This document shows, piece after piece, positions 628 to 12,719 of a stretch of DNA of 64,000 bases. The notes beneath the pieces are model-generated. The model was not told where the DNA came from, made no database searches, and saw only the letters and a list, made by a program, of their open reading frames with translations. The translations under genes and the position numbers were made by a program. The stretch lies in the NCBI RefSeq assembly GCF_009363155.1, contig NZ_CP045302.1, positions 4,013,001 to 4,077,000 of the forward strand. The letters run 5' to 3'. The stretch's first letter is position 1. Each line of letters begins with the position of its first letter. The DNA comes from Azotobacter salinestris (lineage in GTDB: Bacteria > Pseudomonadota > Gammaproteobacteria > Pseudomonadales > Pseudomonadaceae).

Positions 628-3600
628 ATGCCCAGCCTGAACCGCATCATCCTGATCAACACCCACCTCCAGGGCGTGGTGGAATTGGTCGTGGACGACC
701 ACACCAACATCTGCGGCACCAACGCCTCCGGCAAGACCACCCTGCAGCGGCTGGTGCCGGTGTTCTACGGCGAATACCCGAGCCGCGTGGTGCCGGCCAC
801 CCGCGACAGCTTCGAGCGCTGGTACCTGCCCACCGAGCAGAGCTTCATCGTCTACGAATACCAGCGCATGGACGGCCAGCTCTGCCAGGCCGTGCTGGCC
901 GCCGCCGCCGACGGCAAGGGCGTCGCCTACCGCCTGGTGCAGAAGGCCTTCGTCCTCGACGACTACATCAAGAGCCGCCAGGGCGATGCCATCACCTGCC
1001 TGAGCATGACCGAACTGGGCCGCCAGCTGAAGCAGGCCGGTATTTTCGCCACCACCCTGCTCAACACCCGGCAGTTCCGCGCGATCATCCAGAACGACCG
1101 CGGCCTGCTCGCCGCCGACGGCCAGCGTGCCGAGCTGCGCAGCTGGGCCCGGCAGTTCTCCCTCTGCGACCCCGAGCACTCCCTGCGCCACATCGAGAAG
1201 CTGGCCAGGGCCGTGCATTCCCGGGAAGGCAAGATGGAGACCATCAAGTCGATGATCGCCGCCATCCTCGAGGAGGACGGCGTCAGTCCGCCGGCCTCCC
1301 ACCTCAACCTGCAGCGGGTCGAGGCATGGATCCGCGAGAGCCTGCTGATCCAGGGCTTCAACGCCATCCGCCCGGAGTTCGACAAGCTCGAGCGCGAATA
1401 CCAGGAACTGCTCGCCTGCGAGCGCCGCCTCGGCGGCCTGCTGCAGGGCTACCGGACCGAGGAGCCGCGCCTGTACCAGCGCCAGGAGGAGAACGCCGCG
1501 ACCATCGAGCAGACCGGCTTCCAGCTCCGCCAGCTGGAAGAGCGCTGGAAGGACCAGCGCGACGCCCTCAACCTGGACCTCTCCGCGGCCAGGGGCGACA
1601 TCGCGCGCAGCGAGGACGAGCTGGACCGGATCGAAAGCCAGTATCAGGCCTTCCTCGATGCCGACATCGAGCAGGCCAAGGCCGACTTGGAGCAGGTCGG
1701 CGCCTGGCGCGACGACCTGGACAACCTGCAGGCCCGCCACCGCCTGCTGACCGAGCAGCATCAGGACGTGGAGCGCGCCTACCTGGAGCGCCAGCAGGCG
1801 ATCAAGGACCAGCGCGAGGCCGCCCTGGAGCAGTTGCGCGAGCAGCAGGAGGCTCTGCAGGAGGAGCGCGCCCTGCAACGCGAGCAGCAGGCAGAAGCGC
1901 TGGCCAGCCTGGAGCAGGGCTTCAACCAGCGCCGCCAGCAGGGCCAGGACGGCTTCCGCGAGCGCGAATACCAGCTGCAGCTGGAGCAGAACCGCCTGCA
2001 GCAGCAGATCGCCAGCGCCGGTTACAGCGAGGAAGAGAACCGCAGCCTGACGATCTTCGACCAGCGCCTGGAGCGCGCCGATGAGGACGCCGAGACGGCC
2101 GAAGCCCGGGTTCGTCAACTCGAAATGCAGGAGCGCCAGCTGCGCAGCCGGCGCGACGAGGCCAACACGGCCTTCTCGCTGACCAGCCGGCGGGTGGTCG
2201 AGCGCCAGGAGCAGCTGAGCGATGTAGAGCGGATGCTCTATCCCGGCCACCAGACCCTGCTGGAGTTCCTCCGCCGCGAGCAGCCCGGCTGGGAGAGCCG
2301 CCTCGGCAAGGTGATCCATCCGGCGCTGCTGCAGCGATCCGATCTCAAGCCGACGCTCGGCGCGGCGGACGCGGACGGCCTGTTCGGCGTGCGCCTGGAC
2401 CTGGCCGCCATCGACACCCCCGAGCACGCGGCCAGCGAGCAGGAGCTGCGCCAGCGCCTGCAGGTCGCCAGGGATGCCCTACAGGATGCGCAGAACCAGC
2501 AGCAGGAGGCGGAAAAGCTGCTGGTCGAGGCCGGCGCCGCGCTGGACGAACTGCAGCGCCAGCTGGTGTTCGCCCGCACCGAACTGCAGAACCGCCGCGA
2601 CGACCGCCAGCGCCTCAAGGACGAGCGGCGAGCCCAGAAGGACAAACTCGACGCCGCCCTGCAGGAGCGCAAGCTCAAGGCCAGGAAACAGCTCGCCGAA
2701 CTCGGCGGCGCCCTGCAGCAGCTCGCCGGCGAGCGCGACCAGTGGCTGGCCGAGCTCAAGGAGCAGCACGGCGAGGCCCGCCTGGAGAAGGCCGCCCACT
2801 GGCAGCAGGTCATCGGCAGTCTCGATGCCCAGATCCAGCAGCTCAAGTCGGCCGCCGACGAGCGCCGCGGCAAGGCCAGGGCCGAACTCGACGAGTGCGA
2901 GCGCTGGTACAGGGCCGAGCTCAAGTCCCGCGGCGTCGACGAGAACGCCATCGTCGCGCTCAAGCAGCAGATCCGCAGCCTGGAGCAGAGAATCCAGCGC
3001 ACCGAGCAGCGCCGCTCCGAGGTGCTGCGCTACGACGACTGGTACCGGCACAGCTGGCTGCTGCGCAAGCCCAGGCTGCAGGGCGAGCTCGGCGAGAGCC
3101 GCAGCCGGGCGAGCAGCCTGGACCAGCAGCTGAAGAGCGCCTCGGCCGACTACAAGGCCGAACGCAGCCGGCTGGAGGAGGCCCGCCAGCAGGCCCTGCA
3201 GGAGAAGGGCGCCCTCGACGAGGCGCTGGCCCGCCTGAAATCCCTGCTGCGCCGCCTGGGCGAGCTGAAGCTGCCGCGCGAGGGCGAGCCCGCCGCCGGC
3301 GAGCTGGACGAGCGCCTGCGCCTGGGCGAGGAGCTGCTGCACGGCCGCGAGCAGATGCTCTCGGCGATCAGGGGCCATGTGGAGCACTTCGACAGCGTGA
3401 TCGCCGGCCAGTCCGGCTCCAGCCTGGCGGAAACCTGGGAGCGCAGCCGCGAGGAGTGCACCCTGGTCAGCGACCGCGGCATCCCGAGCCTGGACTACCG
3501 CCGGCTGGTGCCGCACCTGGAGCAGTTGCTCAACGTGATGGTGCCGCAGAGCCTCACCGCCCTGCGCGAGCAGGGCAAGATCTTCGGCATCGACCTCAAC

Positions 3601-4302
3601 AACTACTACGACGTGCTGGCCGACATCGACCGGCGCATCGCCTCGCAGAGCGCGCGGATCACCCGCGAGGTGAGCGAGGAACTGTTCCTCGAGGGTGTCT
3701 CCGACTCGGCGGTGCGCATCCGCTCGCGGATCAGCGAGCTGGAGTTCTGGCCGGAACTCAAGGCCTTCATCAAGGCCTTCCGCGACTGGCGCGAGGCCGG
3801 CTTCAGCGAGCTGCCCGGCGAGGACTACACCAGCAGCATGCGCCGGGCGCTGGACATCATCGGCCGCTCGGCGCTTTCCGGCGGCATCGCGGGGCTGCTG
3901 GAGATCGAGCTGCGCCTGCGCGAGGGCAACAGCGACCTGGTGATCCGCACCGACCGCCAGCTCAACGAGTCCTCCAGCCACGGCATGGCCTACCTGATCC
4001 TCTGCAAGTTCCTCCTGGCCTTCACCCGCCTGCTGCGCGGCCCGTCGCCGGCGACCATCCACTGGCCGATCGACGAGCTGGGGACCCTGCACCACAACAA
4101 CGTGAAGAAGATCTTCGAGGCCTGCCGCAACAACAACATCCGCGTGCTCGGCGCCTTCCCCAACCCGGACTCCGAGGTGCTGGCGCTGTTCGCCAACCGC
4201 TACATCGTCAACAAGCAGACGCGCCAGCTGCAGATGGTCAAGCCGCGCCCGGACGCGATCGCCGAGAGGCTGAAGAAACTGCACACCGAGGAGGCGCTGT
4301 AA
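628..4302 (+). CDS. SMC-like ATPase of a MukBEF/Mks/Wadjet-type complex (DUF3584-like)
   Basis: This 1224-residue protein has SMC architecture. Residues 1-40 carry a Walker A motif, GTNASGKT (30-37). Two long Gln/Glu/Arg-rich coiled coils (about 215-530 and 605-960) flank a non-coiled hinge-like segment (about 534-605). The C-terminal head has a signature-like NESSSHGMAY (from about 1113) and a Walker B ending in DE (1149-1150, IHWPIDELG). Length and P-loop fit Pfam DUF3584. The start at 628 is preferred over upstream in-frame codons because GAAGG lies 6 bases ahead and residues 1-30 already look like an ATPase N-terminus. The next gene begins directly after its stop. In this family the ATPase extrudes DNA loops; in Wadjet it drives cleavage of small circular plasmids. 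A role in plasmid defence here is inferred from the operon. Confidence 0.85.
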   Translation: MPSLNRIILINTHLQGVVELVVDDHTNICGTNASGKTTLQRLVPVFYGEYPSRVVPATRDSFERWYLPTEQSFIVYEYQRMDGQLCQAVLAAAADGKGVAYRLVQKAFVLDDYIKSRQGDAITCLSMTELGRQLKQAGIFATTLLNTRQFRAIIQNDRGLLAADGQRAELRSWARQFSLCDPEHSLRHIEKLARAVHSREGKMETIKSMIAAILEEDGVSPPASHLNLQRVEAWIRESLLIQGFNAIRPEFDKLEREYQELLACERRLGGLLQGYRTEEPRLYQRQEENAATIEQTGFQLRQLEERWKDQRDALNLDLSAARGDIARSEDELDRIESQYQAFLDADIEQAKADLEQVGAWRDDLDNLQARHRLLTEQHQDVERAYLERQQAIKDQREAALEQLREQQEALQEERALQREQQAEALASLEQGFNQRRQQGQDGFREREYQLQLEQNRLQQQIASAGYSEEENRSLTIFDQRLERADEDAETAEARVRQLEMQERQLRSRRDEANTAFSLTSRRVVERQEQLSDVERMLYPGHQTLLEFLRREQPGWESRLGKVIHPALLQRSDLKPTLGAADADGLFGVRLDLAAIDTPEHAASEQELRQRLQVARDALQDAQNQQQEAEKLLVEAGAALDELQRQLVFARTELQNRRDDRQRLKDERRAQKDKLDAALQERKLKARKQLAELGGALQQLAGERDQWLAELKEQHGEARLEKAAHWQQVIGSLDAQIQQLKSAADERRGKARAELDECERWYRAELKSRGVDENAIVALKQQIRSLEQRIQRTEQRRSEVLRYDDWYRHSWLLRKPRLQGELGESRSRASSLDQQLKSASADYKAERSRLEEARQQALQEKGALDEALARLKSLLRRLGELKLPREGEPAAGELDERLRLGEELLHGREQMLSAIRGHVEHFDSVIAGQSGSSLAETWERSREECTLVSDRGIPSLDYRRLVPHLEQLLNVMVPQSLTALREQGKIFGIDLNNYYDVLADIDRRIASQSARITREVSEELFLEGVSDSAVRIRSRISELEFWPELKAFIKAFRDWREAGFSELPGEDYTSSMRRALDIIGRSALSGGIAGLLEIELRLREGNSDLVIRTDRQLNESSSHGMAYLILCKFLLAFTRLLRGPSPATIHWPIDELGTLHHNNVKKIFEACRNNNIRVLGAFPNPDSEVLALFANRYIVNKQTRQLQMVKPRPDAIAERLKKLHTEEAL

Positions 4303-4944
4303 ATGCTCTCGACGAAAGGACAGGTCATCGAGCGCCTGCTCAAGGGCGACTTCATCTGCCGCACCACCGACGAGGACGGCTGGCGCTTCCTGAAGAACGC
4401 CGCCAACCGCGCCCAGGTGGACGACTACCTCGCCCAGCTCAACCGCATGGTCGCCCAGGTCGGCGCCAATGCCGACGGCGAGGTGTTCTTCTGCGGCTAC
4501 CGGCAGCTCGGCGAGGACGAGCGCAAGGTCATCGGCCAGCAGTTCCGCGACATCTGCAACGCCCTGACGCCGCTGGTCGAGTGGCTGGTGCTGGTGCAGG
4601 AGGCCGGCGCCCAGGATGCGCCGCTGACCGAGGGCACGCCGGTGCGCCTCAACGAGCTGCAGGGCATCGTCGAGGACACCCCGGCGTTCCGCGAGCAACT
4701 GGCGCGGATCAGCCACTACCGGCTGTTCGGCTCCACCAGCGCCAGCGTCGACGGGCAGATCAAGCAGGTCTTCAAGCGCCTGTGCGAGCTGGGCTACCTG
4801 ACCCGCCCCAATCCGGACAAGCAGATCTACCTGGCCACCGGCAAGCTGGACTACCTGTACGAGGTGATCCGCTTCATCGACGAGACCGAGGGCCTGGACC
4901 TCGAAGGCCGCGCGGAAAGCGCCAGCCAGGGGCAGCTCATATGA
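4303..4944 (+). CDS. MksE/JetB-like accessory subunit of the SMC complex
   Basis: A 213-residue acidic protein with no membrane segment. The ATG abuts the stop codon of the SMC gene, with GAGGAGG inside the end of that gene as ribosome site, so translation is probably coupled. The C-terminal part (about 145-195; SASVDGQIKQVFKRLCELGY, then PDKQIYLATGKLDYLY) has the pattern of a winged-helix domain, as in MksE/MukE/JetB KITE subunits, which bind the kleisin. Size (MksE/JetB about 200-230 residues) and position between the ATPase and a kleisin-like gene support the call. Sequence similarity to named families could not be tested, so the assignment rests mainly on context and size. Confidence 0.65.
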   Translation: MLSTKGQVIERLLKGDFICRTTDEDGWRFLKNAANRAQVDDYLAQLNRMVAQVGANADGEVFFCGYRQLGEDERKVIGQQFRDICNALTPLVEWLVLVQEAGAQDAPLTEGTPVRLNELQGIVEDTPAFREQLARISHYRLFGSTSASVDGQIKQVFKRLCELGYLTRPNPDKQIYLATGKLDYLYEVIRFIDETEGLDLEGRAESASQGQLI

Positions 4945-6161
4945 GCGGCAACCTGCATCAGGCCGGGGTGCGCTTCCTGCGCCAGCTGGGCCGGCACGCC
5001 GAGCCGATCATGGCCGCCTACCTGTCCGGCTCGGTGCCGGACCAGGCGCTGGAGCCGGCGGTCGAGGAGCGGCTGGTCAAGGACGGCATCCTCTACCGGC
5101 CCGAGCCCGGCGCCGACCTGCACCTGCGCCGGGCGGTGCGCGCCCTGCTGGAGGAGGCCCTGCGCGACGACCGCAACCGGCAGATCGATGCCAACACCGG
5201 CTCCGCGCTGGCCACCTTCAAGACCCTCGCCGCCCACTACAAGGAGGCCCGCCACCAGGGCGACTACGCCGCGGCGGACGCCTACCTGGGCGACCTCAAG
5301 GAGCACGTCTACGCCTTCGGCGAGACCCTGAGCCACAGCATCCGCGTACTGTGGAGCCGGCTGAACAACGAGTTCGGCTACGTCGGTACCCTCAACGCGA
5401 AGATCCGCGAGAACGAACTGGCCCAGTCCCAGGTGAGCGAGCTGCTCGCCGGGCTGGAGATGATCAGCTTCGAGGAGCTGGCGGAGACCGCCGGCGACCT
5501 GCGCGAGCTGCGCCGTCTGCTGGTCACCAGCCTGCAGCGCACGGTCAGTGCCTGCGCCCAGGAGCTGAGCGTGGTCCAGGGACGCCTGCTGGAGCTGCTC
5601 GGCCGCTTCCGGCAGATCCGCGGCCGCACCCGCCTGCTCAAGGGCTGGCTGCTGCACATGGAGCAGCAGCCGGACTATCGGGTGGGCAACCACGCCGCCC
5701 ACCCGAACGTGCCGCAGCTGTTCAACCTGGCGGCACCCGTGCTGGCGCCGGCGGCGCTGGACATCCACAGCCCGCAGCACGAAGCCGACCTGCTGGCGTT
5801 GGTGGCGCAGATCCGCGCCCTGCAGCCGCCGGACCGCTTCGCGCCGCCGCCGGGCGAGGCCGGCGAGCTGATCCTCGGCGAGGTGGAGGCCTTCGAGGTG
5901 CAGGGCAACCCGATCCGCGAAGCCGTCGAGGCCTATTTCTGCAGGGTCATCGACAGTGGCGAGCGGCTCTCGGCCCTGGAATACCGGGATCGGCACCACC
6001 TTCCCTGGGATGCGGAAAGCTGGCTGTACCAGGTGATCGGCGGCTATGAAGGTCTGCCCGAGGAGCAGAAGCGCCACTTCGAGCTGGACGCCATCGGCGA
6101 ACCGCATCCGCTGTATTCCGGCAATTTCATCGTCCGGGACGTGGCGCTGTGGCTGGCCTGA
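4941..6161 (+). CDS. MksF/JetA-like kleisin subunit of the SMC complex
   Basis: A 406-residue protein whose ATG overlaps the preceding stop by four bases (ATGA at 4941-4944). Residues 1-75 look like a winged helix (MSGNLHQAGVRFLRQLGRHA, then EERLVKDGILYRPEPG). Residues 80-250 are helical and rich in Leu/Glu/Arg, as in the middle of MukF/MksF kleisins. The C-terminal 130 residues are a mixed domain ending PLYSGNFIVRDVALWLA. Proteins of this kind are, I believe, sometimes labelled phosphoenolpyruvate carboxylase in databases, but no carboxylase motif is visible. A kleisin would bridge the two SMC heads. The gene order ATPase-MksE-MksF differs from the JetA-B-C-D order of classical Wadjet type I. 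Confidence 0.65.
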   Translation: MSGNLHQAGVRFLRQLGRHAEPIMAAYLSGSVPDQALEPAVEERLVKDGILYRPEPGADLHLRRAVRALLEEALRDDRNRQIDANTGSALATFKTLAAHYKEARHQGDYAAADAYLGDLKEHVYAFGETLSHSIRVLWSRLNNEFGYVGTLNAKIRENELAQSQVSELLAGLEMISFEELAETAGDLRELRRLLVTSLQRTVSACAQELSVVQGRLLELLGRFRQIRGRTRLLKGWLLHMEQQPDYRVGNHAAHPNVPQLFNLAAPVLAPAALDIHSPQHEADLLALVAQIRALQPPDRFAPPPGEAGELILGEVEAFEVQGNPIREAVEAYFCRVIDSGERLSALEYRDRHHLPWDAESWLYQVIGGYEGLPEEQKRHFELDAIGEPHPLYSGNFIVRDVALWLA

Positions 6162-6172
6162 ACCGGAGACAC

Positions 6173-6394
6173 ATGCAGGCCGTCCATCGCCTGCTGCGCG
6201 AGCGCCTTGAGCGGGTCGAGCTGAATTCGCTCTGGAAGCCGATTCACGCGGCCTTCGAGGTGGGCGAGGCGCTGGGCAACTGGCTGCATTTCAACCGGGA
6301 GCAACGGGAAATGCTCCGGGAACTGGCCCGGCGCGCATGGGGCTTCGACCCGCTGGAGGCGTTCCGGACGGCACGCGCCGGGAGGTGGCGATGA
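6173..6394 (+). pseudogene. JetD-like TOPRIM protein, N-terminal piece (apparent frameshift)
   Basis: A 73-codon frame starting at ATG 6173 with GGAG five bases upstream, 11 bases after the kleisin-like gene. It encodes a charged helical segment (for example HFNREQREMLRELARRAWGF) and stops at 6394. The last ten codons (RTARAGRWR) look like out-of-frame arginine-rich readthrough. The other frame at the same place reads PDGTRREVAMTAIDEKLA, a natural continuation into the next open frame. One extra C in TTCCGG near 6361-6366 would fuse both into one protein of about 270 residues, close to JetD-type size. The alternative is a genuine two-gene arrangement with a four-base ATGA overlap. Confidence 0.5.
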
Positions 6395-6975
6395 CGGCCA
6401 TCGACGAGAAGCTCGCCCGCCAGCGCCCCGACGATGGCTTCGTGCTGGTCAAGGGGCGCCTGCCTGCGCCGCTTCCTCCATTGGGCTCGGAGTTGAGTCT
6501 GCGCGTGCCGCTGGTTGGCCTGGACCTCGGGGCCGTCGCGTCGGTCGTGGTGATCGAGAACCTCGACAGCTTCGACGATTGGCACGCCTATCCGGCCCCG
6601 GCCGGGCTGACCGACAGCCTGGTGGTGTACCGCGGCCACGGCGGCCTCGCCCGCGGCGCATGCCGGCTGCTGGCGATGCTGCCGGCAGGCTGCGAAGTCA
6701 CCGTCTTCCCCGACTGGGACCCGGCGGGCCTGTTCATCGCCCAGACTCTGCCGCGGGCCGATGCCTTGCTGGTGCCGCAGTCGATCGAGCCCCTGCTGGT
6801 CTTGGGCAGCCGGGAACACTTCGACCGGCAGCATCTGGCTGCCCGTCATCTGGAAGCGGCCGAACTGGACGGCTGGCAGGGCATCTGGGAAGCGATGAAG
6901 GCCGCACAGGTCAGTGTGAAGCAGCAGCACATGCTGGCGCTCGGCACTGTCCTGCGGCAGGTGCCACGTCACTGA
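6391..6975 (+). CDS. JetD/MksG-like TOPRIM nuclease subunit, C-terminal piece or separate ORF
   Basis: A 194-residue frame from ATG 6391, overlapping the stop of the previous frame by four bases. It carries the TOPRIM core: a glutamate after a hydrophobic strand in VVVIENLDSF (Glu about 56) and a DxD in VFPDWDPAG (Asp about 107 and 109). The same pattern occurs in the C-terminal nuclease domain of Wadjet JetD/MksG and in topoisomerases. In Wadjet JetD cuts plasmid DNA captured by the SMC complex. The usual N-terminal arm domain is absent from this frame but is largely encoded by the preceding one, which suggests a frameshift. Functional only if the two frames are rejoined or act as separate chains; this cannot be decided from sequence. 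Confidence 0.6.
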   Translation: MTAIDEKLARQRPDDGFVLVKGRLPAPLPPLGSELSLRVPLVGLDLGAVASVVVIENLDSFDDWHAYPAPAGLTDSLVVYRGHGGLARGACRLLAMLPAGCEVTVFPDWDPAGLFIAQTLPRADALLVPQSIEPLLVLGSREHFDRQHLAARHLEAAELDGWQGIWEAMKAAQVSVKQQHMLALGTVLRQVPRH

Positions 6976-7067
6976 CTCGAAAAGATTTTCACCTCGACCT
7001 TCGCAAGGTTCGCCGCTTCGCTTGAGGGAGTAGACTGGAGGCTCCTCCCGGCTGCTCCTTCCCGCGT

Positions 7068-8705
7068 ATGCAACTTCTCTACACCATCCTGATCATGCTG
7101 CTGGTCGTCGGCGGCACGCGCATCACTGCGCAGTTCATCCCCATCCCGCTGCCGCTCATCCAGATCGCCATCGGTGCGCTGCTGGCGGTGCCGGCGCTGG
7201 GGCTGCACGTGCGGCTCGATCCCGAGCTGTTCCTGCTGCTGTTCATCCCGCCCTTGCTGTTCGTCGACGGCTGGCGGATGCCCAAGGGCGAGTTCTGGCG
7301 GCTGCGCACGCCGATCCTGCTGCTGGCCTTCGGCCTGGTGCTGTTCACCGTGCTGGGCGCGGGCTGGCTGATCCATCTGCTGTTCCCGGGCATTCCCACG
7401 GCGGTGGCCTTCGCCCTGGCAGCGGTGCTGTCGCCCACCGATGCCGTGGCGGTGTCGGCGATCGTCCACGGCCGCCTGCCGCGCACCTTGATGAACATCC
7501 TCCAGGGCGAGGCGCTGATGAACGACGCTTCCGGCCTGGTGGCCTTCAAGTTCGCCGTGGCGGCCGCGCTGACCGGGGCCTTCTCGCCCGCCGAGGCCGG
7601 TCTGGAATTCGTCCTGGTAGCCCTCGGCGGACTGGCGGTCGGGGTCGCCCTGAGCTATGCGCTGGGGCGCTTTCGCGCCTGGATGATCGGCCTCGGCTGG
7701 GAAGAGCCGGCGCCGCACGTGATGTTCATGCTGCTGCTGCCGTTCGCCGCCTATGTGGCGGCCGAGCACCTGGGCGTCTCCGGGATTCTCTCGGCGGTGG
7801 CGGCGGGCATGATGCAGAGCCGTCTCGACCTGCTGCCGCGGCAGACCACCACGCGGCTGCTCAACCGCAGCGTCTGGGCGCTGCTGGAGTTCACCTTCAA
7901 CGGGCTGATCTTCCTGCTGCTCGGCCTGCAGCTGCCGGACATCGTCAAGGCCTCGCTGGAGGAGGGCGAGCTGCTCTGGGCGAGCGCCGGACAGCTGGCG
8001 CTCTACGTGGGCCAGGTGTACCTGGCGCTGATCCTGCTGCGCTTCGTCTGGACCTGGCTCTACTGGCTGGTGTCCGGCGCGCTGCGTCGCTGGCGCGGCC
8101 TGCCCAGCGGCTTCGCCGGGCAGTCGTCGCTGCGTCTGGCCGCGCTGCTCACCCTGAGCGGGGTGCGCGGCGCCGTGACCCTGGCCGGCGTGCTGTCGCT
8201 GCCCTTGCTGCTGGGCAATGGCGAGGCCTTCCCGCAGCGCGACCTGCTGATCTTCATCGCCGCCGGAGTGATCCTGCTGTCGCTCCTGGTCGCCACCCTC
8301 GGGTTGCCGCTGCTGCTGCGCGGTCTGCCGGCGGACAATGAGGAGGCGCGCGAGCAGGAGCTGCGGCGCCAGCGGGCGAAGACCATCGAGGCGGCGATCC
8401 GCGCCCTGGAGGCGCAGAGCGACGACCCCGGCCTGAGCCCCGAGGGCATGGCGCTGGCCGCCGAGGTCAAGGCCAGGATCATGGCCGAGTACCGCCAGCA
8501 GCTGGAGCGCGACGATTCCGGGGAGGCGCGCACGCGCCTGCGCCAGATGGATGCGCTGGAGCAGCGCCTGCGTCTGCAGGCGCTGCGCTCCCAGCGTCTG
8601 GAGCTGTACCGCCTGCGCCACCGCAACCAGGTCGACGACGACCTGCTCGGCGAGATCCTGCGCGAACTGGACATCAGCGAGGCACGGCTGTACCGCAGCA
8701 GTTGA
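7068..8705 (+). CDS. CPA1-family Na+/H+ antiporter
   Basis: A 545-residue inner-membrane protein. Residues 1-420 hold about 11-12 hydrophobic segments, then a charged cytoplasmic tail of about 120 residues rich in Arg, Glu and Gln. The signature SPTDAVAV (about 122-129) and NDASGL (about 149-154) carry the acidic residues of the ion-binding site of NhaP/YjcE-type exchangers. The family exchanges cytoplasmic Na+ (or K+) for protons in pH and salt homeostasis. No strong ribosome site precedes ATG 7068, but the next residues already start the first membrane span. It converges with dapC. An antiporter beside dapC-glnD is the usual order in Pseudomonas. Confidence 0.9.
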   Translation: MQLLYTILIMLLVVGGTRITAQFIPIPLPLIQIAIGALLAVPALGLHVRLDPELFLLLFIPPLLFVDGWRMPKGEFWRLRTPILLLAFGLVLFTVLGAGWLIHLLFPGIPTAVAFALAAVLSPTDAVAVSAIVHGRLPRTLMNILQGEALMNDASGLVAFKFAVAAALTGAFSPAEAGLEFVLVALGGLAVGVALSYALGRFRAWMIGLGWEEPAPHVMFMLLLPFAAYVAAEHLGVSGILSAVAAGMMQSRLDLLPRQTTTRLLNRSVWALLEFTFNGLIFLLLGLQLPDIVKASLEEGELLWASAGQLALYVGQVYLALILLRFVWTWLYWLVSGALRRWRGLPSGFAGQSSLRLAALLTLSGVRGAVTLAGVLSLPLLLGNGEAFPQRDLLIFIAAGVILLSLLVATLGLPLLLRGLPADNEEAREQELRRQRAKTIEAAIRALEAQSDDPGLSPEGMALAAEVKARIMAEYRQQLERDDSGEARTRLRQMDALEQRLRLQALRSQRLELYRLRHRNQVDDDLLGEILRELDISEARLYRSS

Positions 8706-8752: not shown

Positions 8753-9949
8753 TCAGCCCGCGCGGACGAAGTCGCGGATGCGCTCGGCGGCTTCCACGCA
8801 TTCGGCCAGCGGCGCGACCAGGGCCATGCGCACGCGCTGGGCGCCGGGGTTGAGGCCGTTCACGCTGCGCGACAGATAGCTGCCCGGTACCACGGTCACG
8901 TGCTCGCGGGCGAACAGCTCGCGGGTGAAGGTCTGGTCGTCCACCGGGGTGCGTGGCCACAGGTAGAAGCTGCCGTCCGGGCGCTTGACGTCGAGCACCG
9001 GCTGCAGGATGTCCAGCACGGCGTCGAACTTCTCCCGGTACAGCACCCGGTTGGCGCGGACGTGAACTTCGTCGTTCCAGGCCGCGATGCTGGCCAGCTG
9101 GGTGGGCACCGACATGGCGCAGCCGTGATAGGTGCGGTAGAGCAGGAAGCTCTTGAGGATCTCGGCGTCGCCGGCGACGAAGCCCGAGCGCAGGCCCGGC
9201 AGGTTGGAGCGCTTGGACAGGCTGTGGAACACCACGCAGCGGCGGAAGTCGCTGCGGCCCAGCTCGGCGCAGGCGGTGAGCAGGCCGGGCGGCGGGTTCT
9301 GCTCGTCGAAGTACAGCTCGCTGTAGCACTCGTCGGCAGCGATCACGAAGTCGTGCTCGTCGGCCAGGGCGATCAGCTTCTTCAGGGTGGAAAGCGGCAC
9401 CAGGGCGCCGGTGGGGTTGCCCGGCGAGCAGAGGAACAGCAGTTGGCAGCGCTGCCAGACGTCCGCCGGCACCGCGTCGAAGTCGGGGTTGAAGCCGTTC
9501 TCCTCGAGGCACGGCAGGTAGTGCGGCGTGGCCCCGGCGAGCAGGGCCGCGCCTTCGTAGATCTGGTAGAAGGGGTTGGGGCTGACCACCAGGCCGTCGC
9601 TTGCGCGGTCCACCACGGTCTGGGTGAAGGCGAACAGCGCCTCGCGGGTGCCGTTGACCGGCAACACGTGGCGCGCCGGGTCCAGCCAGCCGGTCGGCAC
9701 CCGGAAGCGCCGCTCGCACCACTGGGTGACGGCTTCGCGCAGCGCCGGCAGGCCGAGGGTGGTGGGATAGACCGAGAGCTGCTCGAGGTTGGCGGTCAGG
9801 GCCTCGGCGACGAAGCTCGGCGAGCGGTGCTTGGGTTCGCCGATGGACAGGGCGATGGGCTTCTTGTCGGCCGGCGGCTGCACGCCGGCGAGCAGCGCGC
9901 GGAGCTTCTCGAAAGGATAGGGTTGCAGCAGGTTCAGGGCGTCGTTCAT
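8753..9949 (-). CDS. dapC: N-succinyldiaminopimelate aminotransferase
   Basis: A 398-residue fold-type I PLP aminotransferase. It makes N-succinyl-LL-2,6-diaminopimelate in the succinylase route to meso-DAP and lysine. The PLP lysine lies in SLSKRSNLPGLRSG near residue 244, with the usual SPGNPTGA and AADECYSELYF motifs before it. The N-terminus MNDALNLLQPYPFEKLRAL is typical of the pseudomonad enzyme. It lies downstream of glnD on the same strand; the 70-base gap holds a long GC-rich hairpin. The function is assigned from the family look and the glnD neighbour, which marks DapC rather than a general aspartate aminotransferase. Confidence 0.9.
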   Translation of the reverse strand: MNDALNLLQPYPFEKLRALLAGVQPPADKKPIALSIGEPKHRSPSFVAEALTANLEQLSVYPTTLGLPALREAVTQWCERRFRVPTGWLDPARHVLPVNGTREALFAFTQTVVDRASDGLVVSPNPFYQIYEGAALLAGATPHYLPCLEENGFNPDFDAVPADVWQRCQLLFLCSPGNPTGALVPLSTLKKLIALADEHDFVIAADECYSELYFDEQNPPPGLLTACAELGRSDFRRCVVFHSLSKRSNLPGLRSGFVAGDAEILKSFLLYRTYHGCAMSVPTQLASIAAWNDEVHVRANRVLYREKFDAVLDILQPVLDVKRPDGSFYLWPRTPVDDQTFTRELFAREHVTVVPGSYLSRSVNGLNPGAQRVRMALVAPLAECVEAAERIRDFVRAG

Positions 9950-10019: not shown

Positions 10020-12719
10020 TCAGATGCTGATCCGGCTCGGCTGGATGTGGCTGTCGCCATCGGCCAGCTGTTCGACGATCGCCAGCTGCAGGCGGGCGCA
10101 GAACTCCGGATCTGACAGCGGCTGGTGGTGCGCGTCGGTGACGAAGAACACGTCCTCGATCCGCTCGCCCAGGGTGGCGATCTTGGCGTTCTGCAGCGAC
10201 AGGTCGAAGTCCAGGAAGATCTTGCCGATCCGCGCCAGCAGGCCGGGGCGGTCCGGGGCGATGATCTCGAGGATGGTCACCGGGCGCAGGGCATCGTTGT
10301 GGATGGTGACCTGTGGCGCGAAGGCGAAGTGCTTGAGCTGGCGCGGCACGCGGCGCTGGATGATGGTGGGGTAGTCGGCCGGGTTGCGCAGGGCCTCCAC
10401 CAGCCCCTGGCGGATCTCCTTGATGCGCGCCGGGTTGTTGCCGATCGAGCCGCCGTCGGCGTCGAGCACTATGTAGGTGTCGAGGGTGAACTGGCTGGTC
10501 GAGGTGATGATGCGGGCGTCGTGGATGCTCAGGTTGAGCTGGTCCATGGCGGCCACGGTCACGGCGAAGAAGTCGTGCTGATCCGGTGCGTAGATGAAGA
10601 TCTGGGTGGCGCCCTCGAATTCGCGCTGGGTGGTTTCCTTGATCAGCACCAGCGGTCCGCCGTTGCTCGGGTGCTGCAGGATCGCCTCGGTGTGCCAGGC
10701 GATGTCGTTGGAGGTGTGGCGCAGGAAGTAGTCGTCGCCCAGCTGCGTCCAGAGGTGTTCGGCGTCGTCGGGGTCGGTGCCGCTGCGCACCAGGATGTCC
10801 AGCGCGGCGTTCTGCGTCTGGCGGATCTGCTCCTCGCGGGCGACCGGCTGCTCCAGGCCGCGGCGCAGGGCATGCTTTGTCTCGGTGTAGAGCTGGCGCA
10901 GCAGGCTGGCCCGCCAGGAGTTCCAGAGGGTCGGGTTGGTGGCGTTGATGTCCGCCACGGTCAGCACGTAGAGGTAGTCCAGGTAGGTCTGGTCGCGGAC
11001 CTTCTGGGCGAAGTCGAAGATCACCTGCGGGTCGGAGAGGTCCTTGCGCTGGGCGGTGGTCGACATCAGCAGGTGGTTGCGCACCAGCCAGACGATCAGT
11101 TGGGTATCCCAGCCCGGCAGCTGGTGGCGCTGGCAGAAGGCCAGGGCGTCGGCGGCGCCGAGGTCCGAATGGTCGCCGCCGCGGCCCTTGCCGATATCGT
11201 GGTAGAGCCCGGCCAGGTAGACCAGTTCGGGCTTGGGCAGCTTCTCGATCAGCTTGCTGGCCAGCGGGTATTTTTCCGCCAGTTCCGGCCAGAAGAGTTT
11301 GCGCAGGTTCTTGATCAGGTGCAGGGTGTGGGCGTCGACCGTATAGATGTGGAACAGGTCGTGCTGCATCTGGCCGACGATATGGCCGAACTCCGGCAGA
11401 TAGCGCCCGAGGATGCCGTAGCGGTTCATGCGCCGCAGGTTGCGGTGGATGCCCTGGCGGCTCTTGAACAGCTCGATGAACAGGCCGGTGTTGTGGGGAT
11501 CGCGGCGGAAGGCATCGTCGATCAGGTAGCGGTGGTCGCGCAGCAGGCGGATGGTGTCGGCGCGCACGCCGCGGATTTCCGGGTGCCGAGCCAGCAGCAC
11601 GAAGATCTCCAGGAGGGCGGAAGGGGTTTCCTGGAAGACCTTGCCGTGGGTGATCTCCAGATAGCCGTCGCGTACCTGGAAGCGCTCGTTCAGCGGCTCG
11701 ACGCGCCCGGCGCTGTCGCCGGGCAGGATGACCTCCTCGAAGTGCTGGAAGACCAGCTCGGTCAGCTCGGCGATGCCCATCACCACCCGGTAGTACTTCT
11801 GCATGAAGCGCTCGACGGCGAGCTTGGCGTCGCTGTCCTCGTAGCCGAGCAGGCCGGCGATCTGCCGCTGCAGGTCGAACAGCAGACGGTCCTCGGCGCG
11901 TCCGGCGAGCATGTGCAGGGCGTAGCGCACCTTCCAGAGGAACTCCTGGGAGGCGGCGAGCAGGGTGTATTCGCTTTCCAGCAGGAAGCCCTGGCCGACC
12001 ATGGCGTGCAGGTTGATGGTGCCGAACTGGCGGCGGGCGATCCAGAGAAGGGTCTGGATGTCGCGCAGGCCGCCGGGCGAGCCCTTGACGTTGGGTTCGA
12101 GGTTGTATTCGGTGTCGTTGTAGCGGGCGTGACGGGCCTTCTGCTCGTCGCGCTTGGCGAGGAAGAAGGCCCGGCTCGGCCACATCCGCTGCGCGCTGGT
12201 GACTTCCTGCATGCGCTGGCGCAGGTGTTCGGGGCCGGCGAGGGTGCGGCTTTCCATCAGGTTGGTGATCACCGTCAGGTCGGCCTGCGCCTCCTCGGCG
12301 CACTCGGCCAGCGAGCGCACGCTCTGCCCGACTTCCAGGCCGATGTCCCAGAGCAGGGTGAGAAAGCCCTCGATCGGCTCGCGGAAGACCTCATGATCCG
12401 CGCCGTCCATCAGGATCAGCAGGTCGATGTCCGAGTAGGGGTGCAGCTCGCCGCGGCCGTAGCCGCCGACGGCGATCAGGGCGATGTCGGCGTCCTCGCT
12501 CCAGTCGAAGCGGTTCCAGGCCAGGGCGAGAATCTGGTCGACGAACCAGGCCCGGTCCTCGATCAGCCGGCGGATGTCGCGGCCTTCCCGGAAGCGTGCG
12601 TCGAGCACCTCCCGGGCGCGCCGCAGGGCCTTCTTGAAGGCGGGGATGGGACTGGACTTCAGGGCCAGCTCGGCCTGGAACTGGCCAGGGTCGAACAACT
12701 CGGGATCCACCTGCGGCAT
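10020..12719 (-). CDS. glnD: Bifunctional uridylyltransferase/uridylyl-removing enzyme (PII sensor)
   Basis: An 899-residue cytosolic nitrogen sensor that uridylylates PII when glutamine is low and deuridylylates it when glutamine is high. Residues 80-103 carry the nucleotidyltransferase motif [19 protein letters not shown]. The HD hydrolase motif [13 protein letters not shown] lies near residue 505. Two ACT domains fill the last 200 residues ([20 protein letters not shown], then [19 protein letters not shown]). Length equals the Pseudomonas/Azotobacter family. In Azotobacter GlnD is needed, through PII, for NifA activity, so the gene matters for nitrogen fixation as well as assimilation. It sits between map and dapC, the standard order. 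Confidence 0.97.

Follow-up and report, generated by a model that had tools for sequence, protein, structure and literature searches.

An operon of four linked genes, SMC-E-F-D, lies in a 64,000-nucleotide stretch of Azotobacter salinestris DNA that we analyzed as a whole and call the window (positions 4013001–4077000 of contig C2 in genome G000, which has 5.29 Mb in 3 contigs). We put the probability at about 0.58 that, as sequence comparisons suggest, the operon encodes a chromosomal condensin that replaces MksBEF and that derives from a Wadjet-like mobile module shedding its nuclease, D. We favor this reading over a defence island because D has been lost repeatedly and is split in the window, because SMC-E-F is conserved, and because carriers lack MksBEF (within the host family) and MukB.

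An SMC-E-F-D operon with a split D gene

The operon is real, and its parts are as follows:
628 to 4302, plus strand: SMC, 1224 amino acids; DUF3584 (PF12128), Walker A and B motifs, profile match to MksB
4303 to 4944, plus strand: E, 213 amino acids; MksE/KITE-like by Pfam MksE and profile comparison
4941 to 6161, plus strand: F, 406 amino acids; MksF/kleisin-like by profile comparison
6173 to 6394, plus strand: N-terminal piece of D, 73 amino acids; its frame differs from that of the TOPRIM piece
6391 to 6975, plus strand: TOPRIM piece of D, 194 amino acids counted from ATG (the open frame begins further upstream); DUF7281 (PF23947)

An earlier note on this DNA had described four linked genes joined by overlaps of one to four bases. 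The linkage holds, from the start of SMC to the end of the TOPRIM piece. As for the overlaps, the one between E and F stands (4 bases), but SMC and E abut with zero gap and the N-terminal D frame begins 11 bases past F. The two D frames overlap each other by 4 bases. The TOPRIM open reading frame, which had been taken for the fourth gene, does match DUF7281 (175.7 bits) and has its conserved acidic residues intact, but it is only the second piece of a D gene that is not one intact frame. A scan for promoters and terminators returned nothing useful.

In relatives, D is a single open reading frame of 266–312 amino acids; in most loci, it begins close to the stop codon of F. Since the pieces form one frame in relatives, D is split in the window genome. 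The frame change might instead be a sequencing or assembly error in an intact gene, or the two pieces might be made as two polypeptides coupled via the ATGA overlap. The other three genomes that we drew from the window's genus all have a whole D (L012, L013, and L014), and the TOPRIM piece retains its motifs. On the other hand, the adjacent SMC, E, and F are intact and loss of D is frequent in this clade, so we lean against both of these explanations while giving them appreciable weight.

Profile matches to Mks and Wadjet proteins

The SMC protein matches Pfam DUF3584 with 1319.8 bits (the cut-off is 31) over nearly its full length (residues 8–1196 on profile positions 1–1191), as the earlier note had supposed. 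The motifs that we take to be Walker A-like (GTNASGKTT, residues 30–38) and Walker B-like (IHWPIDEL, with D1149 and E1150) are intact, and the motif columns are invariant in the family alignment. When we compared profiles with hhalign, SMC matched MksB with probability 99.8 (E = 2.1e-29, 864 columns) from residue 1 onward, and it matched type I JetC with probability 93.5 in the C-terminal part only. By these comparisons, SMC is nearer to MksB than to type I JetC. Searches against sequence profiles from the PDB gave 8 weak matches, including eukaryotic SMC3 and SMC5 chains. SMC also has weak matches to the Rad50 and Smc models, as might a DNA-repair protein of the RecN/SbcC/Rad50 kind that is unrelated to condensins. 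However, those matches are far under the curated cut-offs and are best in the middle of the protein, while the MksB match is long and E and F resemble condensin partners, so we consider a repair protein very improbable.

For E, the evidence is a family-wide resemblance. The window's E scores 23.1 bits against Pfam MksE, which is under the curated cut-off of 27, but Pfam MksE matches 27 of 29 members of the E family at E ≤ 1 (best 6.2e-10), and DUF4194 matches 20 of 29. The probability of a match between the E profile and MksE rose from 25.3 with 29 sequences to 82.4 with 67 sequences. Nothing convincing was found for E among the PDB sequence profiles. E resembles MksE and is KITE-like.

F is the least secure of the assignments. 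The window's F had no matches in Pfam, PADLOC, or NCBIfam up to E = 1, there was no convincing Pfam family for the F family as a whole, and there were no matches to PDB sequence profiles. The F profile matched MksF with probability 85.0 (P = 6.3e-6) when built from 64 sequences (F residues 40–176) and with 3.9 when built from 28 sequences. The same comparison gave 37.9 against MksE and 0.4 against JetA; as a control, MksF against JetA gave just 8.9. F is likely to be kleisin-like. The parts list in the earlier note (SMC ATPase, MksE/KITE-like protein, kleisin-like protein, and TOPRIM protein) is thus upheld by profile matches, with the kleisin the least firm: of its second and third proteins, E matches MksE and F matches MksF only with the deeper alignment.

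In the D family, Pfam searches at E ≤ 1 found DUF7281 in 23 of 24 rows, JetD_C in 7, and the TOP6A-Spo11 TOPRIM domain in 4 (2 of the 24 rows are the window's pieces). The D profile matches MksG-like proteins with probability 96.5 and type I JetD with 91.0, and its only match among PDB sequence profiles is MksG, at E = 0.55. By these matches, D resembles MksG and JetD. Searching the five window proteins with PADLOC gave weak matches to JetC3 (1.8e-4) and JetD1 (1.2e-5) and nothing else.

DUF3584 and DUF7281 are both Pfam families of unknown function. DUF3584 is mentioned incidentally in the literature that we searched, in one phage paper and one plasmid paper among others, and in none with a condensin title; no mention of DUF7281 was found there.

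Linkage and distribution on chromosomes

We searched two samples of genomes with the Pfam models. Among 57 relatives, DUF3584 was over the cut-off in 16 and DUF7281 in 14. In a draw of 398 genomes from the phylum, DUF3584 was found in 22 and DUF7281 in 12, and all 22 DUF3584 carriers are from the window's class. Pooling both samples (G000 is in both) gave 37 carrier genomes, and we read one locus in each. Loci L050–L053 and L096, which are other Mks-like loci with weak matches, were left out of this count.

SMC, E, and F are colinear and on the same strand in all family loci where the contig continues. This linkage, which the earlier note had proposed to check, is kept in relatives far beyond chance, and the order SMC-E-F-D, which the note had recognized as unlike that of Wadjet, was seen in every locus of the SMC-E-F(-D) family that we read. 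Counting the window's split copy, 24 of the 37 carriers have D, either behind F or, where the locus is broken, on another contig. In the other 36 carriers, D is whole in 22, cut at a contig end in 1, and absent from 13. Searching the whole genomes of these 13 for DUF7281 found none over the cut-off and one weak match (21.5 bits), in an Mks-like locus of G388. Another 12 loci from the host family have D in 11 cases. A pattern search of contigs, which gave at least three loci, also identified carriers by name: Shewanella salipaludis and Salinimonas chungwhensis, which both lack D, and Billgrantia campisalis, which has it. A draw of 185 genomes from the class contained just 4 DUF3584 carriers, which is too few for a test.

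A different order, D-SMC-F-E, is found in four other loci, with an SMC of 978–998 amino acids (L050 5755–11502, L051 3982–9849, L053 320–5711, and L110 533–6276; the contig of L053 ends past F).

Loss and weak constraint of D in the core clade

In a tree of 63 SMC proteins, 46 sequences, including the window's, are set apart from 17 others (9 from plasmids, 1 from a phage, and 7 divergent copies from genomes), with SH-aLRT support of 93. We call the 46 the core clade. (Loci L021, L026–L028, L094, and L095, which are cut at contig ends, and L114 and L115, where SMC is in pieces, are omitted.) A tree of the SMC head under a mixture model gives the same split, also with support of 93. In the tree of F, no single branch sets the core clade apart, but a constraint that keeps it together is not rejected (p = 0.365).

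Of the 46 core rows, 16 lack D, whereas all 17 others have it (Fisher p = 0.003, which is too small given the shared ancestry of the rows). The window was scored as having D even though its copy is split, and so was L025, because its D sits on another contig of the same genome (L026). At least 8 changes in the state of D are required on each of the SMC, F, and SMC-head trees. One of the loci without D, L016, still has a remnant of 37 residues (59% identity, E = 2.7e-7); no remnant was found in the other 15 (tblastn at E ≤ 1e-3, 2.5 kb behind F).

Where D is retained in the core clade, it changes fast relative to its neighbors. With a fixed topology, the ratio of tree lengths for D and SMC is 2.01 in the core clade and 0.81 outside it. 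The ratios for E (0.66 and 0.68) and F (1.01 and 1.04) are nearly the same in both groups. This test drew on loci with a complete set of four genes (29 core and 15 other, the window excluded), and a comparison of terminal branches used 23 and 15 (those with an SMC branch above 0.02); its p values are too small owing to shared ancestry, and long branches could blur the contrast in rates. A depth-matched check (SMC identity of 0.30–0.45) went in the same direction, with D at 0.21 in 214 core pairs and at 0.38 in just 5 other pairs.

Positive selection across the gene could also make D fast, but this was ruled out: in 10 chosen core pairs, the ratio of nonsynonymous to synonymous substitution rates (dN/dS) across D was 0.12–0.54, which is below 1 in every pair. 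It exceeded the values for SMC and for F in all 10 pairs and the value for E in 9 of them. (Some of the pairs have a genome in common, synonymous changes [dS] are saturated in one pair, and selection could still act on single sites.) We therefore attribute the speed of D to weaker constraint rather than to gene-wide positive selection. Overall, D alone is weakly constrained in the core clade, yet it is under purifying selection where it is retained. Within the window's genus, dS between L012 and L014 is 0.91 for D and 0.14–0.21 for SMC, E, and F; D alone may have been exchanged.

These results bear on the proposal of the earlier note that the operon is a Wadjet-type defence against plasmids. 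In such a reading, the chromosomal operon would be a new type of Wadjet, copies without D would be decaying or borrowing a nuclease, and an arms race would speed up D. Each of the four parts does have a Wadjet or Mks counterpart, the acidic residues of D are kept in relatives, and D is under purifying selection. But SMC-E-F remains whole in copies that have lost D, the constraint on E and F relative to SMC is the same as elsewhere (as measured in copies that have D), and D is no faster in copies on mobile elements, in which conflict ought to be most intense. We consider a purely defensive role for the chromosomal operon unlikely. A double role, in which the complex serves as a chromosomal condensin and, in genomes that have D, restricts plasmids as well, would account for both the purifying selection on D in the 10 core pairs and the condensin-like pattern of SMC-E-F. 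Still, D is often absent, and both activities are predicted only; we view the double role as a less probable reading than the chromosomal condensin, if a better one than defence by itself.

MksBEF and MukB in carrier genomes

Among 109 genomes from the host family, DUF3584 is over the cut-off in 28: 26 with a core copy and 2 with a divergent copy (G006 and G468). (G502 has a weak match under the cut-off and was not counted.) MksE of the nuclease-free MksBEF type (at least 138.9 bits) is present in 63 of the 109 genomes. It is in 0 of the 26 core carriers and in 63 of the other 83 genomes, including both divergent carriers. We read seven of the loci with strong MksE matches (L097–L101, L103, and L104). 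The SMC is 933–945 amino acids in each, and the D profile found nothing in them at E ≤ 0.01. This profile does detect MksG-like D proteins (in L050–L053 and L096), but it detects only 1 of 5 type I JetD loci (L105–L109), and that one weakly. Genera g10 and g11 hold both kinds of genome, core and MksBEF, in different species. Such exclusion between the core operon and MksBEF would be unexpected for a defence system.

G494 was considered as a case of overlap between nuclease-free MksBEF and the core operon and was rejected, as its MksE (119.3 bits) is part of locus L096, which has the order F-E-SMC-D. G494 has this nuclease-bearing Mks locus (L096 1452–6938) in addition to a DUF3584 operon without D.

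Outside of the family, we checked G063, which has a core copy, and the sole MksE match is its own E gene. MukB is over the cut-off in 1 of 34 carriers (G301, which is divergent and has D) and in 0 of the 26 core carriers tested, with a weak match in G339 (20.6 bits versus a cut-off of 23). The N-terminal MukB family, PF04310, had no match in G000.

Copies on plasmids and a phage

Using tblastn with F proteins, we found relatives in 14 plasmid records, from Azospira, Marinobacter, Aromatoleum, Rhodoferax, Enterobacter, Pseudomonas (3), and Vibrio (6). Plasmids from Polaromonas and Cupriavidus were matched by D alone, and F was present when the regions were read, for a total of 16 plasmid records. 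(A blastn search for plasmids with the window's operon had zero matches, so protein searches were needed.) D is directly behind F and on the same strand in all 16 records. We read the regions for 13 of the 16 and judged the other three, all from Vibrio, from the positions of the matches. SMC and E are ahead of F in 12 of the 13 regions; for example, the Polaromonas plasmid has a complete SMC-E-F-D module. The exception is the Cupriavidus plasmid (L123, NZ_CP017759.1), which has F and D at 5682–7735 but neither SMC nor E in the region that we read; this pair is perhaps a remnant. The V. campbellii plasmid has SMC and F annotated in two pieces. In the Enterobacter plasmid pVIM-Exn692 (L114 1025–5997), an IS256-type element interrupts SMC, and a SAVED-domain gene is downstream.

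All four genes, in the order SMC-E-F-D, are also present in the 209 kb Dolichospermum phage Dfl-JY45 (L116, PP438435.1, 6974–13329). In viral contigs, the SMC profile found 0 relatives among 600 candidate stretches and the F profile found 0 among 58.

Among the mobile copies, Pfam identified DUF7281 in 7 of 7 D proteins tested and MksE in 2 of 2 E proteins tested. PADLOC, when run on 8 proteins from three plasmids, gave weak matches to JetC3 and JetD2 and no more, and the genes are annotated merely as "ATP-binding protein" or "hypothetical protein." The constancy of D behind F, in every plasmid record and in the phage, is what a defence system would lead us to expect. Overall, a Wadjet-like defence role fits these plasmid and phage relatives better than it fits the window's copy, whose clade has repeatedly lost D.

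Known systems and the surroundings of the operon

MksBEFG and Wadjet are the closest comparison for the four-gene form. They too combine an SMC, a KITE protein, a kleisin (in our family the probable kleisin F), and a TOPRIM nuclease in one operon, they too are found on plasmids, and the D of the window's family resembles MksG-like proteins and type I JetD. The MksBEFG gene order is F-E-B-G (PMC10123090), and these complexes extrude loops and cut circles when two motors meet (PMC10123090, PMC10586767). We saw the order F-E-B(-G) in Mks loci L097, L099, L101–L103, L052, and L096. The family described here differs in having the order SMC-E-F-D rather than F(A)-E(B)-B(C)-G(D), and in having a compact D (266–312 amino acids) with its own Pfam family that is optional in the chromosomal clade. 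Also, PADLOC's Wadjet models match the SMC-E-F-D proteins weakly or not at all.

MksBEF of the Pseudomonas aeruginosa type (represented by F-E-SMC loci with a strong Pfam MksE match) is closest to the form without D. SMC, E, and F occur without D in 13 of the 37 carriers, and the SMC profile matches MksB at 99.8. However, the gene order is reversed, the SMC is 1224 amino acids here as compared to 933–950 in eight loci (L097–L104), and MksBEF has zero overlap with core DUF3584 across the 109 genomes. MukBEF would be the same general type of machine as SMC-E-F, but the MukB model is not over its cut-off in any of the core carriers that were tested. In the part of the literature on DUF3584, DUF7281, MksB, Wadjet, condensins, and phages that our searches reached, we found no description of the SMC-E-F-D family. 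The founding MksB paper (Petrushenko 2011) may count some SMCs of this family among its MksB homologues.

The earlier note had also placed the operon in a setting typical of defence islands, which fits poorly. By eye, we recognized no defence gene in about 12.8 kb of surrounding open reading frames (no search of these neighbors with a defence library was made). Three open reading frames lie downstream, which we take by eye to be a CPA1-like Na+/H+ antiporter (7068–8705), a DapC-like aminotransferase (8753–9949), and GlnD (10020–12719). The putative antiporter gene is also 3′ of the operon in L012, L013, and L014.

Discussion

If the preferred reading is correct, SMC, E, and F would form a condensin of the MukBEF/MksBEF type, in which E is the KITE protein, F is the kleisin, and an ATP-driven ring forms loops in chromosomal DNA. 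In the window's clade, this complex would organize the chromosome in bacteria that lack both MksBEF and MukBEF. We infer that the ancestor was a four-part Wadjet-like module, which would persist on plasmids and in a phage. In the mobile form, the SMC motor would extrude loops and D would cut DNA that has been fully looped, so that circles would be cut as two motors meet. The core form would have retained the motor for the chromosome. The chromosomal D would have become dispensable, as its weaker constraint, its frequent loss, and the frame split in the window genome suggest.

Living species may even preserve the steps from weapon to condensin: a mobile four-part module, a chromosomal operon with a weakly constrained D, a split or remnant D, and a three-part operon that replaces MksBEF. 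In that reading, the three-part forms would belong to lineages grouping with Salinimonas and Shewanella, and also to certain species within the window's family, where MksBEF would have been replaced. Both the series and this placement of the three-part forms are tentative, and we give them rather less credence than the condensin role itself.

Several points weigh against the condensin reading. First, 30 of the 46 core rows still carry D (counting the split copy as present), and since most core copies keep D, it can be argued that D still does something. Second, the exclusion of MksBEF was seen within the host family, with G063 the only genome checked outside it; its p value is inflated by the shared ancestry of related genomes; and both kinds are found together in just two genera, g10 and g11. 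Third, 20 of the 109 genomes carry neither complex, so a complex of this sort is not essential. Fourth, the absence of MukB is weak evidence, as no non-carriers from the same families were searched and only 3 of 185 genomes in the class draw were over the cut-off, weakly. Fifth, the case for F as a kleisin is made by profile comparison only, with signal only in the deeper alignment. Finally, because the root of the tree is not placed, the direction from mobile to chromosomal is itself inferred.

Under the condensin reading, this would be a second family (compare the review PMC10586767) in which the transition between a nuclease-bearing complex and a condensin could be followed in close relatives that differ in D. 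The plasmid and phage copies are a candidate new type of Wadjet, and the chromosomal operon would be one more condensin in gammaproteobacteria that are without MksBEF.

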